A stretch of 64,000 bases of DNA from Pseudarthrobacter phenanthrenivorans Sphe3 (GTDB taxonomy: Bacteria; Actinomycetota; Actinomycetes; Actinomycetales; Micrococcaceae). Each line of letters starts with the position of its first letter. Position 1 is the first letter of the stretch. Positions 2,824 through 42,974 of the stretch are shown piece after piece. Location: NCBI RefSeq assembly GCF_000189535.1, contig NC_015145.1:248001-312000 (forward strand), in the 5' to 3' direction. Made by a program: the position numbers and the translations under genes. The notes beneath the pieces were generated by a model. The model was given only the letters and a program-made list of their open reading frames with translations. It was not told the origin of the DNA and did no database searches.

Positions 2824-2840
2824 GTTGCGCTGAACGCAAC
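2824..2840. promoter_or_regulatory. Operator-like inverted repeat GTTGCG-N5-CGCAAC
   Basis: A perfect 6-bp dyad with a CTGAA spacer directly after the predicted transcription start and 21 bp before the transporter ATG. A protein bound here would block the promoter. The IclR-family regulator encoded at 5608-6486 is the obvious candidate ligand. Confidence 0.55.
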
Positions 2841-2861
2841 CACAACAATTTTGGTGGACAT

Positions 2862-4226
2862 ATGAGTAACGAGATCTCCCCCGCGGCGTCCCACGGCCGC
2901 ATCGAGGGCAGCCTGATGAGCCACTCTCACCCCCAACCTGCTGACACCGCCGTCAGCAAAGAGACCCGCCGCAGGGTCATCGCGGCCAGCTTCATCGGAA
3001 ACTTTGTCGAATGGTTCGATTACGCGGTGTACGGCTACCTGGCCGTAACCATCGCCACCGTCTTCTTTCCTGAATCGGATCCGCAGACCGGCTTGCTGCT
3101 GACCTTCGCGCTCTTTGCCATTTCCTTCCTGGTCCGTCCCCTGGGCGGGTTCATCTGGGGCCACATCGGTGACAGGGTGGGGCGCCGGACGGCACTGTCA
3201 CTCTCCATCCTCATCATGTCCGGTGCCACGTTCTGCATCGCCCTGATCCCCGGCTACGACGTCATCGGGCTCTGGGCACCCGTCCTGCTCCTGATCATCA
3301 GGGTGGTCCAAGGCTTCTCCGCTTCCGGCGAATACGCGGGAGCGTCCGCCTTCCTGGTGGAGTACGCGCCGGCCAACCGGCGTGGCCTCTACGCTGCGGT
3401 GGTCCCCGCCAGTACGGCGGCAGGCCTGCTCCTTGGTTCCCTGCTGGCCGGGTTGCTGACCACGCTTCTCAGCACCGAAGCGATGCACAGCTGGGGCTGG
3501 CGCCTGCCGTTCCTGCTGGCAGCACCCATGGGCCTGATTGGCCGGTATATCCGGACCAAGCTGGAAGACACCCCCGTGTTCCGCGAACTGGAGGCGGAAG
3601 ACCAGGCAGCCAAGGCGCCCGTCGCCAGCCTGTTCCGGAAACACTGGCGGCAACTGCTGCAGGCCGTCGGCGCCGTGCTGCTCAACGCCGTCGGCTTCTA
3701 CGTGATCCTCAGCTACATGCCCACGTACCTGTCCTCGGAGCTGGGCCTTGGGGAAACCGAATCCTTCCTGGCCACCACCGTGGCGCTGACCACCTACATC
3801 GGCTTCATCTTCCTGACCGGAATGCTCTCGGACCGCTATGGGCGGAAGAAGGTGCTCATTGCGGCGTCCGTGAGCTTCATCCTTCTGACTGTGCCCGCGT
3901 TCGCCCTGCTGGGTACGGGGAACTTCCTGGTCATCGTCCTGGTCCAGATCCTGCTGGGCGCCATGCTCACCCTCAATGACGGCACGCTCCCCAGCTTCCT
4001 GGCGGAGATGTTCCCCACGCGGGTCCGTTACAGCGGCTTCGCCGTCAGCTTCAACCTCTCCAATGCACTGTTCGGCGGTACCGCCCCGTTCATGGCGACC
4101 CTCCTGATCGCGGCCACGGCGAGCGACCTGGCGCCTGCCTGGTACCTGGTGGCAGCCGCCGTCGTCTCCCTCATCGCCGTGGCGCTGTCCAGGGAGACCT
4201 GCAAGGAACCCCTGCGCCACGAATAG
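2862..4226 (+). CDS. MFS transporter of the metabolite:H+ symporter (MHS/ProP-like) family
   Basis: A 454-residue membrane protein with about 12 hydrophobic segments and the MHS signatures GNFVEWFDY near the N-terminus, GHIGDRVGRR in the loop between segments 2 and 3, RVVQGFSASGEYAGA, and DRYGRKKVL in the mid loop. The family carries small zwitterions and organic acids with protons (ProP, ShiA, citrate and related). Because it sits directly upstream of creatinase and shares a promoter, uptake of creatine or a related compound is inferred. I choose the ATG at 2862; an ATG at 2916, with GAGGG eight bases upstream, is an equally good start and would remove an 18-residue polar leader. Confidence 0.88.
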   Translation: MSNEISPAASHGRIEGSLMSHSHPQPADTAVSKETRRRVIAASFIGNFVEWFDYAVYGYLAVTIATVFFPESDPQTGLLLTFALFAISFLVRPLGGFIWGHIGDRVGRRTALSLSILIMSGATFCIALIPGYDVIGLWAPVLLLIIRVVQGFSASGEYAGASAFLVEYAPANRRGLYAAVVPASTAAGLLLGSLLAGLLTTLLSTEAMHSWGWRLPFLLAAPMGLIGRYIRTKLEDTPVFRELEAEDQAAKAPVASLFRKHWRQLLQAVGAVLLNAVGFYVILSYMPTYLSSELGLGETESFLATTVALTTYIGFIFLTGMLSDRYGRKKVLIAASVSFILLTVPAFALLGTGNFLVIVLVQILLGAMLTLNDGTLPSFLAEMFPTRVRYSGFAVSFNLSNALFGGTAPFMATLLIAATASDLAPAWYLVAAAVVSLIAVALSRETCKEPLRHE

Positions 4227-28054: not shown

Positions 28055-28145
28055 GACGCTCTCTCACTTAATGTGCCTTTTTGCTGATCCTCTCTCACCC
28101 GTGAGAGAGGATCAGCGTTTAAGCGACGTTAAGTGAGAGAGCGTC
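28055..28145. repeat. 91-bp nested double palindrome
   Basis: Outer arms GACGCTCTCTCACTTAA (28055-28071) and its exact complement (28129-28145); inside, GCTGATCCTCTCTCAC (28083-28098) and its exact complement (28101-28116). All four arms share CTCTCTCAC or GTGAGAGAG. It follows the RutE stop by 8 bp, after a run of eight C. It may terminate transcription, but its design is more like a REP/BIME or miniature element. Confidence 0.8.
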
Positions 28146-28161
28146 CGTGGGAGACTGGGGC

Positions 28162-39480: not shown

Positions 39481-40761
39481 GTGATCGACGTAAAAGACCT
39501 CAGCGAAAACCCGGATAAATACCGTGCCAGCCAGCGTGCCCGCCGCGCGGACGAATCAGTGGTGGACGCAATCATCTCCGCGGATTCCGCCCGCCGCGCC
39601 GCGCTGATCCGGTTCGAGAACCTCCGCGCCGAGCAGAACGCCTTCGGCAAGAAGGTGGCGCAGGCCAAGGGCGACGAGAAGAAGGCCTTGCTGGCCGAGG
39701 TCAAGGAACTGGCCAACTCGGTCAAGGCGGCTTCCGCCGAGGCCGACGCCGCGCAGACCAAGCAGGAAGAACTGCTGCGCACTATCCCCAACCTGATCGA
39801 GGACGGCGTCCCGGAAGGCGGCGAGGATGACTACGTAGTGGTCAAGACTGTCGGCACGCCCCGCGAATTCCCGGACTTCGAGCCGAAGGACCATCTGGAA
39901 ATCGGTGAACTGATCGGCGCCATCGACATGGAGCGCGGCGCCAAGGTTTCGGGCGCCCGCTTCTACTTCCTCCGCGGCGTGGGCGCCCGGCTGGAAATGG
40001 CGCTGCTGCAGATGGCCATGGACCAGGCCATCGAAGCCGGCTTCATCCCCATGATCACGCCCACCCTGGTGCGTCCCGAGACCATGCAGGGCACCGGCTT
40101 TGACGTAAAGCACGACGCCGAGATCTACCGTCTCGCCGAAGACGACCTTTACCTGGTGGGCACCTCCGAGGTGGCGCTGGCCGGGTACCACGCGGACGAG
40201 ATCCTCGACTTCTCCGCGGGCCCCATCCGGTACGCCGGCCAGAGCTCCTGCTACCGCCGCGAGGCCGGTTCGCACGGCAAGGACACCCGCGGAATCATCC
40301 GCGTGCACCAGTTCAACAAAGTGGAGATGTTCATCTACACCACGGTTGAAGAGGCTGCTGCGGAGCACCAGCGCCTGCTGGCGTGGGAAGAGGAGATGCT
40401 GGCCAAGTGCGAGCTGCCGTACCGGGTGATCGACACCGCGGCCGGCGACCTGGGCATGTCCGCTGCCCGCAAGTACGACTGCGAAGCCTGGGTCCCCACC
40501 CAGGGCGCGTACCGCGAGCTGACCTCCACCTCGAACTGCACCACGTTCCAGGCCCGCCGCCTGAACATCCGCGAACGGGCGGTCAACCCGGAGGGCGTTG
40601 CCAAGGGCACCCGGGCAGTGGCCACGCTGAACGGCACCCTGGCCACCACCCGCTGGATCGTCGCGCTGCTGGAGCACCACCAGAACGCGGACGGCTCGGT
40701 CAACGTGCCCAAGGCCCTGCAGAAGTACCTGGGCGGGCTTGAGGTCCTCCCGGTCCTGTAG
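39481..40761 (+). CDS. serS: Seryl-tRNA synthetase
   Basis: A 426-residue class II synthetase. The N-terminal coiled-coil arm for tRNA-Ser covers about residues 30-100; motif 2 is [33 protein letters not shown] binds serine, [15 protein letters not shown] precedes motif 3, [19 protein letters not shown] use the GTG at 39481, which gives the family start VIDVKDL; GTG at 39478 is next to it. No ribosome binding site is obvious, so it may be leaderless. The frame is open far upstream through the antisense of the lipid kinase gene, which is not real coding. Confidence 0.96.
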
Positions 40762-40781
40762 CTTTCGCCTTGTCCCGGGTT

Positions 40782-40825
40782 TGTTCGCGGATCTGCGCCT
40801 TCAAGGCCCGGATCCGCGAACAAGC
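40782..40825. repeat. 44-bp element, copy A (perfect palindromic ends)
   Basis: Layout TGTTCGCGGATC-N6-TTCAAGG-N10-CGAACAAGC. Copy A has near-perfect dyad arms: TTGTTCGCGGATC (40781-40793) and GATCCGCGAACAA (40811-40823). It starts 21 bp after the serS stop. A matching copy B with the same spacing is at 41936-41979. Confidence 0.8.
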
Positions 40826-40923
40826 TCCTGGCTCGGGGAGCTTGCCGCCGTCGCGCTCCCTGGTTGTCCACATAGGCCCACCCGGCTGCTGACTCCGTGG
40901 CGTCCAGCCGCCAGCCTTGTGGG

Positions 40924-41964
40924 ATGGAAATCCTGCCCGGACTGATCGATTCCGCCGCCATCCTGCGTATACAGGGGAGTACTGACCAGATCCACCGGGA
41001 GTTCCGGGCGGGACGCCTGGTCCGGATCCGGCGCGGTTTCTATGTGAGGACGGCGGACTGGCTCAGTGCCCGGCCTTCAGCGCGCTTCGCCTGGACGACG
41101 GCGGCCGTCGCGAGGTCCGTCAAGGGAGCGGTCTTGTGCGGGGAAACGGCTGCCCTGGCCAACGGACTGCCCACGCTTCGGACCCCGCCGTGTGTGGAAC
41201 TGGCAACCACCCTGCCCGGGCGGAGCGGAATTCGACGGTCGCCCCTGACGGTCCTGGGGGAGGGCGTGGCAGCACGGCAAGTCCGGGAACGCCGTTCATA
41301 TCCCCTGCGTTACTGCCTGAAACCTACGCTTGAGGCTATGGTGCAGGGCGAATTCAGGTGTACAAGCCCCGTTCAGACATCGCTTGACCTGATGGTGGCG
41401 GGCAAACCCGCTGAGGCCTTGGTGGTCGCAGACGGACTGGCGCGGCGGTTGCATGGCCAAGGCCACCTGTCGTCAGGCGCCAACCTGCTGGCCGTACGCG
41501 GGATCGCGGAAGGCATAGCGGCCCACCCCCATGCTTCGGCACGGCGCCGTGCGGAACGGGTAGCAGAACTGGCCAGTCCCTTGGCCGAGTCTGTGGGCGA
41601 GTCCTACAGCCGGGCAATGTTTGAGTTCCTGGGATTTGAGCAGCCCGTGCTGCAGCACGTCTTTTGCGATTCAGACGGTTTCATCGGCCGGGCCGATTGC
41701 TTCTGGCCGGGACACCGGGTTGTTGGCGAATTCGATGGTAAGGCGAAGTACGTCGAAGCCGCTGTTCGTGTTGGCACCACGCCGGAAGAGGCGGTGTACC
41801 GGGAGAAGATTCGTGAAGACCGCATCCGCGCCCTCGGCTTCGCCTTCGTGCGCTGGGGGTGGGCGGATATCGAAAACCCGGAGCGGCTGAGGCGGAAGCT
41901 CCTTGTGGCGGGGCTGCGACCGCGGATCAGGGGCCTGTTCGCGGATCCTTGCGTTCAAGGTTAG
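40924..41964 (+). CDS. Solitary AbiEi-like HTH / PD-(D/E)XK endonuclease-fold protein
   Basis: A 346-residue protein. The N-terminus has the AbiEi-antitoxin-like winged HTH pattern (IHREFRAGRLVRIRRGFYV). The C-terminus has a Vsr/DUF559-like nuclease core: Asp258 in GRADCFWPG, then Glu269, Asp271 and Lys273 in VVGEFDGKAKY, and REKIREDRIRALGFAFVRWG. No AbiEii toxin lies next to it. Its last nine or so codons (RGLFADPCVQG) are made from copy B of a 44-bp element, whose copy A lies upstream of the gene. ATG at 40924 is used, with GTG at 40897 possible. DNA cleavage is inferred from the fold. Confidence 0.78.
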   Translation: MEILPGLIDSAAILRIQGSTDQIHREFRAGRLVRIRRGFYVRTADWLSARPSARFAWTTAAVARSVKGAVLCGETAALANGLPTLRTPPCVELATTLPGRSGIRRSPLTVLGEGVAARQVRERRSYPLRYCLKPTLEAMVQGEFRCTSPVQTSLDLMVAGKPAEALVVADGLARRLHGQGHLSSGANLLAVRGIAEGIAAHPHASARRRAERVAELASPLAESVGESYSRAMFEFLGFEQPVLQHVFCDSDGFIGRADCFWPGHRVVGEFDGKAKYVEAAVRVGTTPEEAVYREKIREDRIRALGFAFVRWGWADIENPERLRRKLLVAGLRPRIRGLFADPCVQG

Positions 41965-41979
41965 GTTGCACGAACAAGC
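41936..41979. repeat. 44-bp element, copy B (degenerate right arm)
   Basis: TGTTCGCGGATC (41936-41947), TTCAAGG (41954-41960) and CGAACAAGC (41971-41979) repeat copy A with identical spacing; about 34 of 44 positions agree. Its inner right arm is degraded. It overlaps the end of the nuclease-like gene. Confidence 0.78.
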
Positions 41980-42110
41980 CCGGGAGTGTGGCGGGCGGCC
42001 CGGTTATTAACACTCACACCGGGGACAACCTGTGGGTATTTGCCAACTGTTCAACAACTCTGTGGCGCGCGTCCTAGCGGGATTTCACGGCCTTCTGCTC
42101 TACTTGATGG

Positions 42111-42974
42111 ATGACAACGCTGACTGAAACCTCAGTCGCCGGCAACGATGACCGGCGAGACAACAACGAGAACAACGCCATTAGCCAGAAGCTGATGGTC
42201 GCACTGGACGTGGACGGCACCCTGGTGAACCACGACGGCCACATGTCTGCGGGTGTCCGGGAATCCGCGCAGGCCGTAGTGGCTGCCGGGCACGAGGTCA
42301 TGATCGCCACGGGGCGTTCGCTGAATGCCACCTTGCCGATCATCGAGAAAATCGGGATCGAACGGGGCTACGCTGTCTGCTGCAACGGCGGCGTGACCTT
42401 GCGCCTCCACCCTGCGCTGGACGGCGGCTACGAGGTCATCCACAAGGCCACCTTCGACCCCGGACCCGCCCTCCGCGCACTGCGCGAACGGCTTCCCTCC
42501 GCCAAGTATGCGCTCGAAGATGAAGAGGGCAACTTCCTTTCCACCGAGCGCTTCCAGGACGCCAGCTTCGGCGTCGAGGCCATCGGCGTCGACTTCCACA
42601 CCCTGCTCGAGGCCACCGCCGTGCGTGTTGTGGTGTTCAGCACCGAGAACACCCCCGAAGAGTTCACCGCAGCGATTGAGCATGTGGGACTCGCCGGGGT
42701 GACCTACTCCGTGGGCTGGACTGCCTGGCTGGATATCGCCGCAGCCGGGGTGACCAAGGCCAGTGCCCTGGAGAACCTCCGCGGCAGGCTCGGCATTGAA
42801 CCGCACCTCACCGTGGCCATTGGGGACGGCCGCAACGACATCGAAATGCTCAGCTGGGCGGGGCGTGGCGTTGCGATGGGCCAGGCGCCGGAGGAAGTGA
42901 TCGCCGCCGCTGACGAGGTCACCCACTCAGTGTTCGACGACGGCGCTGCACACGTGCTGCGCAGCCTGCTCTAG
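42111..42974 (+). CDS. Cof-type HAD-IIB phosphatase
   Basis: A 287-residue protein. A polar N-terminal tail of about 28 residues precedes LMVALDVDGTLVNHDG (nucleophile), MIATGRS (motif II), TKASALENL (motif III Lys) and IGDGRNDIEML (motif IV), with the Cof cap between. It dephosphorylates a small metabolite. It is a paralogue of the protein at 8496-9317. A following phosphatase gene begins 16 bp downstream. Confidence 0.87.
   Translation: MTTLTETSVAGNDDRRDNNENNAISQKLMVALDVDGTLVNHDGHMSAGVRESAQAVVAAGHEVMIATGRSLNATLPIIEKIGIERGYAVCCNGGVTLRLHPALDGGYEVIHKATFDPGPALRALRERLPSAKYALEDEEGNFLSTERFQDASFGVEAIGVDFHTLLEATAVRVVVFSTENTPEEFTAAIEHVGLAGVTYSVGWTAWLDIAAAGVTKASALENLRGRLGIEPHLTVAIGDGRNDIEMLSWAGRGVAMGQAPEEVIAAADEVTHSVFDDGAAHVLRSLL

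Follow-up and report, generated by a model that had tools for sequence, protein, structure and literature searches.

A solitary AbiEi-like nuclease gene that follows serS in Pseudarthrobacter phenanthrenivorans Sphe3 is bracketed by two copies of a palindrome. We read gene and palindromes as a single unit that belongs to a large family of actinobacterial elements with one gene each, a nuclease gene flanked by two copies of its own palindrome, which would be spread by cutting and repair of that palindrome; we put the probability of this reading at about 0.6. The gene was analysed within a stretch of 64,000 nucleotides (contig NC_015145.1, positions 248,001 to 312,000), referred to here as the window, and other loci and genomes are designated by L and G numbers. 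Many of these genomes contain several solitary AbiEi/DUF559-like nuclease genes, so far without explanation, and a search of the open-licence PMC literature returned no description of palindromes around this gene family. The bracketed nuclease genes appear to form a family of very small mobile elements that has gone unrecognised.

The original prediction described two copies of a 44-bp element with identical spacing, one after serS and one over the end of the nuclease gene. A repeat search recovered the pair as 49-nt copies at 40777-40825 and 41931-41979, with 76% identity and a spacing of 1154 (Table 1 gives the consensus register). The gapped pattern proposed at the outset matched both copies exactly but was absent from all 100 shuffles of the window, which rules out a chance repeat. 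The repeat pair stands, but its extent and nature had to be revised: the element is a 49-bp palindrome, and its type differs between family members. The reverse strand of copy 1 also fits the pattern, with 2 mismatches, and this copy folds at -39.3 kcal/mol (z -8.3); copy 2, a worn palindrome, folds at -23.9 kcal/mol (z -2.2). Because the stop codon of the nuclease gene (41962-41964) lies within copy 2, the last ten codons derive from the palindrome, as had been predicted. This overlap varies among five intact orthologs, the stop codon preceding the palindrome in L027 and L031 and lying inside it in L028, L030 and L032. An alternative 34-nt pattern with 3 mismatches was discarded, as its spacing was wrong and it missed the window's own copy. 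RNAalifold retained only 5 pairs across 36 sequences, and an explanation of the palindrome as an RNA structure was rejected; the Rfam matches at the left palindrome (miR403 on both strands, window 40768-40838, and mir-3160) had sub-gathering scores and were taken as hairpin artefacts.

Table 1. Features of the nuclease locus, in window coordinates
Feature	Position	Strand	Basis
serS, left neighbour	39481..40761	+	Pfam Seryl_tRNA_N, tRNA-synt_2b
Left palindrome (copy 1), near-perfect, starting 16 nt past the serS stop codon	40778..40826		repeat search, pattern, fold
TTGTCCACATAGG motif, 60 nt 5' of the ATG, recurring ahead of family genes	40864..40876	+	
AbiEi-like / PD-(D/E)XK-type nuclease gene, 346 aa, ATG start (GTG at 40897 possible)	40924..41964	+	
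Codons of the putative catalytic residues E226, D258, E269/D271, K275, E294-K295	41599..41808	+	conserved alignment columns
Right palindrome (copy 2), reaching over the last codons and stop of the nuclease gene	41932..41980		
HAD-type hydrolase (Hydrolase_3), right neighbour	42111..42974	+	Pfam

The comparison of flanks argues strongly that the association of this gene family with matching flanking palindromes is general in our sample. Family members were present in all 41 genomes searched in the genus, and a profile search of the phylum found them in 13 of 50 genomes. Among the matches listed, 80 named relatives were taken from 586 confirmed candidates, and 3 of these were dropped from the final flank comparison for absent or short flanks, leaving 77. 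A further 26 profile hits from G000, G002, G157, G164, G173, G186 and G188, part of the matches listed in the phylum search, were picked from the match table without knowledge of their flanks (27 were fetched and L366 was dropped for a short flank). In the final comparison, in which starts were set by the profile, flanks extended 60 nt into the gene and 158 control genes were used, 52 of the 77 named loci and 23 of the 26 profile hits scored above the 99th percentile of the controls, and 42 and 21, respectively, above the largest control; the window gene scored 30. The shared flank repeat was itself palindromic in 48 of the 52 named loci and 19 of the 23 profile hits. The suggestion that such repeats would sit beside other members of the family was therefore borne out for most of the members examined. 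The final comparison replaced, owing to wrong gene ends and after the result was known, one against 109 control genes, in which many genes came out too short because their starts had been placed by codon usage, and flank boundaries ran through the window's right palindrome; there, 9/26 profile hits and 38/77 named loci exceeded the 99th percentile and the window gene scored 13. Against unrelated pairs, 37/77 loci were above the 99th percentile, and against 950 window pairs 27/75 were above the 95th percentile, 13 of them above the maximum. An earlier test placed 22/77 loci at rank 1, with a summed score of 2635 against a permuted maximum of 2233, figures for which serS, present in the flanks of inverted loci, is a confounder.

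The repeats differ between members. In G186, those of 10 of the 11 listed members are mutually distinct (off-diagonal scores up to 13, self scores 29-122), and in the window's own genome all four listed members are bracketed, by four different repeats. L344, from the same genome, is flanked by an array of ~31-bp units rather than by a simple palindrome. A long near-perfect palindrome of such ~31-bp CTCTCTCAC units, recognised by eye, also occurs in the window at 28056-28146, as a solitary copy of this second repeat family.

Comparison between relatives shows gene and palindrome type travelling together, as a unit that is found at unrelated sites and whose homology ends within ~20 nt of the palindromes. 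The proteins of L186 (Arthrobacter cavernae) and L191 (Arthrobacter sp. Soil762) are 91.5% identical, and the two loci share no neighbours. Their collinear DNA homology covers 2850-4040 in L186 and 2809-4040 in L191 and is split into two segments (86% and 78% identical). The palindromes extend from 2866 to 4032 in L186 and from 2827 to 4032 in L191, which has one further half-site, at 2809. L284 (G097) matches L191 over 2827-4040 only, and the genome of L191 carries a second copy, 81% identical, ~7.6 kb away. When ten loci were compared at the L191 site, G138 and G037 proved to be occupied in the same way as the genome of L191; a palindrome without the gene was present in G093 and G041, part of one in G095, and none in G120 and G030. 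The reading of gene and palindromes as a mobile unit is well supported by such comparisons.

The serS site was then classified in the 41 genomes by reading the sequences. A gene in the window's orientation follows serS in 12 genomes (in G001, G025 and G033 it appears frameshifted or stopped), and in 11 others serS is followed by a more distant family member that runs the other way (broken or remnants in G003, G020 and G030). Four genomes (G006, G013, G016 and G034) have a palindrome and no gene, ten have neither, and the site is unclassifiable in G008, G019, G039 and G040. The left and right palindromes of a given gene are alike and differ between clades, with TTGTTCGCGGATCC near the window clade and TCCCCGC, GGTGCACC and others in the inverted genes. 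The empty site originally predicted, with one copy but lacking the gene, is thus present in G016 with the window-type palindrome, and in G006, G013 and G034 with types of other clades; these gene-less palindromes may either have stayed behind when a gene was lost or have arrived alone. Empty junctions exist at both the serS and L191 sites, but spacer divergence is too great to fix the exact joint. The empty sites and matching flanks uphold the proposed cassette character, whereas its cutting or movement by the enzyme is something we infer. In G034 (L252, L306) the hydrolase gene is inverted beside serS and the nuclease gene lies ~3.5 kb off, as if by inversion.

The element is not confined to this gene. 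It recurs in three other places of its own genome with up to 3 mismatches (reversed-pattern control, 0), and a covariance model located six sites in all, counted as 12 strand hits because the palindrome is matched on both strands. Half-site searches revealed fixed-geometry pairs away from the gene, with 0-2 hits per strand and genome for reversed-pattern controls; none of 32 fetched solitary sites matched any of 30 family proteins. The window-type model had hits in 31 of the 41 genomes. The palindrome of L345, another family member of the window's own genome, is ~66 bp long and gave 35 forward and 37 reverse half-sites in that genome (control, 1 and 0), that is, about 36 sites, one pair of which surrounds the family gene L345; no match to this type was found in 24 of the 41 genomes. 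Twenty of its sites were fetched (L372-L391) and none contained a family gene. The full palindrome was located in 17 of the sites, with a nearly constant stem and a variable loop, in 9 tandem, 7 convergent and 1 divergent spacers. The 39 window-type palindromes in the loci read lie in 23 convergent, 14 tandem and 2 divergent spacers, with no palindrome centre inside a gene call; the baseline for the same loci, with gene calls by a simple codon model, is 30 convergent, 51 tandem and 28 divergent spacers (n=109). Solitary palindromes are shown by this comparison to be dispersed, chiefly just past stop codons.

These positions bring forward the explanation that the palindromes are ordinary bidirectional terminators, hairpins that insulate the gene and are kept alike through gene conversion, with no functional tie to the nuclease. 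Many copies lie 15-40 nt from the nearest stop codon, convergent spacers are favoured as described above, the hairpin of copy 1 is strong, and the same spacer can hold different palindromes in different genomes. Nevertheless, matching flanks are missing from the control genes, the palindrome type accompanies the protein to unrelated sites, and the arms are conserved at the sequence level in a 36-sequence alignment of the window type. Additionally, a simple terminator scan placed a T-tailed terminator at neither copy, even though the stem of copy 1 is strong; terminators of GC-rich actinobacteria often lack T runs. We consider this explanation unlikely. The original prediction had allowed that the repeats could be terminators of separate origin, and this alternative is true in part, in that the copies occupy terminator positions.

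The spacers also allow an operator role to be weighed, in which the protein would be an AbiEi-antitoxin-like regulator that binds both palindromes to control its own gene, the dispersed copies being its regulon. AbiEi binds inverted repeats at its own promoter, the N-terminal part of the protein is AbiEi-like and the sites are paired around the gene. The dispersed copies, however, lie at 3' ends, with divergent spacers, where promoters meet, accounting for only 2/39 and 1/17 of them, and a pure regulator would not need the invariant putative active-site residues described below. We regard this role as very improbable.

Two further observations concern what occupies these spacers. In L331, L332, L337, L338, L341 and L343, the palindrome ATCGCCGGAAC...GTTCCGGCGAT or close variants of it replaces the window type in the same convergent spacer. 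In L129 and the orthologous spacers L289-L303, a single spacer next to a strongly conserved region, which may consist of RNA genes, contains different palindromes from genome to genome; this spacer may be a landing hot spot.

Palindromes can also end up bracketing other DNA, as in G025 (L304, 1644-2623), where a convergent spacer contains 832 bp between two 74-bp window-type copies that differ by 1 mismatch. The insert holds a 246-aa open reading frame on the minus strand; in 19 relatives read, the spacer has one window-type palindrome (12) or a different hairpin (7). Another enzyme, for instance a RAYT/IS200-type transposase encoded elsewhere, could have moved the palindromes with the nuclease gene as a passenger, and this insert, as well as the palindromes present in genomes without the nuclease gene, would fit such a history. 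It is difficult to reconcile with the four different repeat families of the own genome, each of which brackets a member of one and the same protein family, and the Pfam scan of the analysed proteins revealed a Y1/HUH domain in none, no search for RAYT/IS200 genes having been made in these genomes. A passenger gene seems to us distinctly improbable. A CBS-domain-like gene, identified by eye, also lies between two window-type palindromes in both G000 and G016 (L130, 1893-2642; L305, 1585-2316).

The gene product is probably a DNA-cutting enzyme. It consists of an AbiEi-like N-terminal part and a nuclease domain whose fold is closest to the homing endonuclease I-Bth0305I and Vsr. The putative catalytic residues listed in Table 1 are invariant in all 42 rows of alignment A4, and the dN/dS ratio (nonsynonymous to synonymous substitution rates) is 0.09-0.22 in 6 pairs of relatives. 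Pfam assigns AbiEi_4 to the window clade and DUF559/MTES_1575 to distant members: L344 (own genome) and L349 (G186) passed the DUF559 cut-off, L345 and L346 matched DUF559 and MTES_1575 below it, and the window protein itself matched neither in the scan. NCBIfam and PHROGs gave no convincing match, and a PDB sequence search returned three rows at chance level. As first predicted, the gene has no toxin partner, an AbiEii nucleotidyltransferase being absent from its immediate surroundings, which are formed by serS and the HAD hydrolase.

A defence device, in which the nuclease attacks invading DNA and the palindromes act as self-markers or as switches restraining it, is the least probable of the explanations considered here. 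The PADLOC AbiEi models match 22 of 23 family members (E up to 0.1) and genomes may hold many members (11 listed for G186), as would be expected from such a device. The neighbours at the junctions read are, however, serS and the HAD hydrolase, defence islands not having been searched for, and carriage by phages (0 matches in 50,697 phage records) or plasmids (one weak match) hardly occurs in the records compared.

Family genes also share an upstream signal. TTNTCCACA was detected upstream in 44 of the 80 named loci (control rate, 0.002 per 280 nt) and TCCACA in 66 of the 80; in 18 of the 44 loci carrying the motif, TTNTCCACAT stands 60 nt 5' of the start codon. This suggests that TTNTCCACA is a promoter signal shared by the family genes. 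The TTGTCCACATAGG / TTNTCCACAT motif resembles an actinobacterial DnaA box, and the putative promoter signal may be tied to replication, although this is a guess.

In the mechanism that we propose for the single-gene elements, the AbiEi-like part would bind the palindrome and the Vsr/I-Bth0305I-like part would nick or cut it. Repair from another copy could then spread either the palindrome alone, giving rise to REP-like copies, or whatever lies between two palindromes, that is, the gene or, by accident, a cargo. Palindromes would survive best where they are usable as terminators; this would account for the position of copy 1 behind serS and for the worn state of copy 2.

Several results weigh against this reading. 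The case for cutting, binding or movement by the protein comes from sequence comparison, and a Foldseek search of the PDB found no match with E up to 0.001. In the final flank comparison, 25/77 named loci and 3/26 profile hits (L356, L367 and L368) fell short of the control threshold. A gene without visible palindromes, named beforehand as a contrary case, is found in G012 (L037), 1 of the 12 forward-oriented orthologs. No target-site duplication or precise excision was established at the junctions compared, and the palindrome of G041 keeps a promoter remnant, so that the gene was simply lost there. Flank similarity of pairs at unrelated sites averaged 19.7 when the proteins were >60% identical (36 pairs), against 12.9 at 50-60%, 12.2 at 40-50% and 11.9 at <40% (2,328 pairs), but the rise is limited to pairs above 60% identity, which reuse few loci; an outlier pair, L169-L181, with a score of 72 and no protein identity recorded, was taken as a shared neighbourhood missed by the filter. 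Strand hits of the window-type model averaged 18.2 in the nine genomes with a close clade-A gene and 3.6 in the other 32 (p about 1e-5), a contrast confounded by relatedness and obtained with a model partly trained on these genomes. The clade-A gene looks broken in 2 of the 9 genomes of the high-copy class (G001 and G025), and G004, G016 and G006, which lack it, have 18, 16 and 10 strand hits. Finally, the palindromes do occupy the positions of terminators.

Taken more broadly, the chances are about even that these elements represent a hitherto unlinked, phylum-wide class of mobile DNA, in which an AbiEi-like wing picks a private palindrome, a homing-type nuclease cuts it and repair spreads palindrome or cassette; such a class would be REP-like with an enzyme unrelated to RAYT, and enzyme and palindrome would co-diversify into many specificities. 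The link to private palindromes gives each of these nucleases a candidate DNA target and offers a candidate enzyme for REP-like repeats without RAYT. It could open up a large collection of sequence-specific nucleases whose sites lie next to their genes and, if the broader reading is true, ready-made bidirectional terminators would have been seeded across actinobacterial chromosomes.

Among known systems, the elements differ from AbiE (type IV toxin-antitoxin) by the missing AbiEii partner and the added C-terminal nuclease domain, and they are not AbiE, since the toxin partner is missing. DUF559 and MTES_1575, predicted restriction-endonuclease-like Pfam families, are matched by distant family members that are also bracketed; the Pfam entries describe the domain only, and repeat association is unmentioned in the descriptions shown. 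Unlike Tn7 TnsA, the nuclease has no partner transposase in the loci read, and unlike IS200/IS605, no HUH domain was reported in the scanned proteins. The fold recalls the homing-type I-Bth0305I/Vsr-like nucleases, here fused to an AbiEi-like domain. Homing endonuclease genes, in contrast, lie in an intron or conserved gene and split their target, whereas here the gene is intergenic and a target-like palindrome stays on each side; with its site uninterrupted, it is not a classical homing gene. There is a close likeness to REP/RAYT systems (REPtrons). According to Di Nocera et al. 2013 (PMC3733652), REP elements measure 20-40 bp and lie mostly in convergent or tandem spacers near 3' ends, and the systems share with ours short intergenic palindromes in such positions, a bracketed enzyme gene and several families per genome. 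The window palindrome is longer than the REPs of that source (49 bp) and, in the 36-sequence alignment of the window type, is devoid of an unpaired GTAG or CGTC tag. Copies are also fewer than those of typical REPs, the window palindrome having six sites and that of L345 about 36 in the own genome, and the enzyme is AbiEi-like/Vsr-like, whereas RAYT is a HUH tyrosine transposase. The REP/RAYT or homing logic anticipated in the original prediction is thus recognisable in REP-like dispersed copies and a nuclease fold like that of homing endonucleases: the system resembles REP/RAYT in its logic, with an unrelated, homing-like enzyme, and is not a REPtron.
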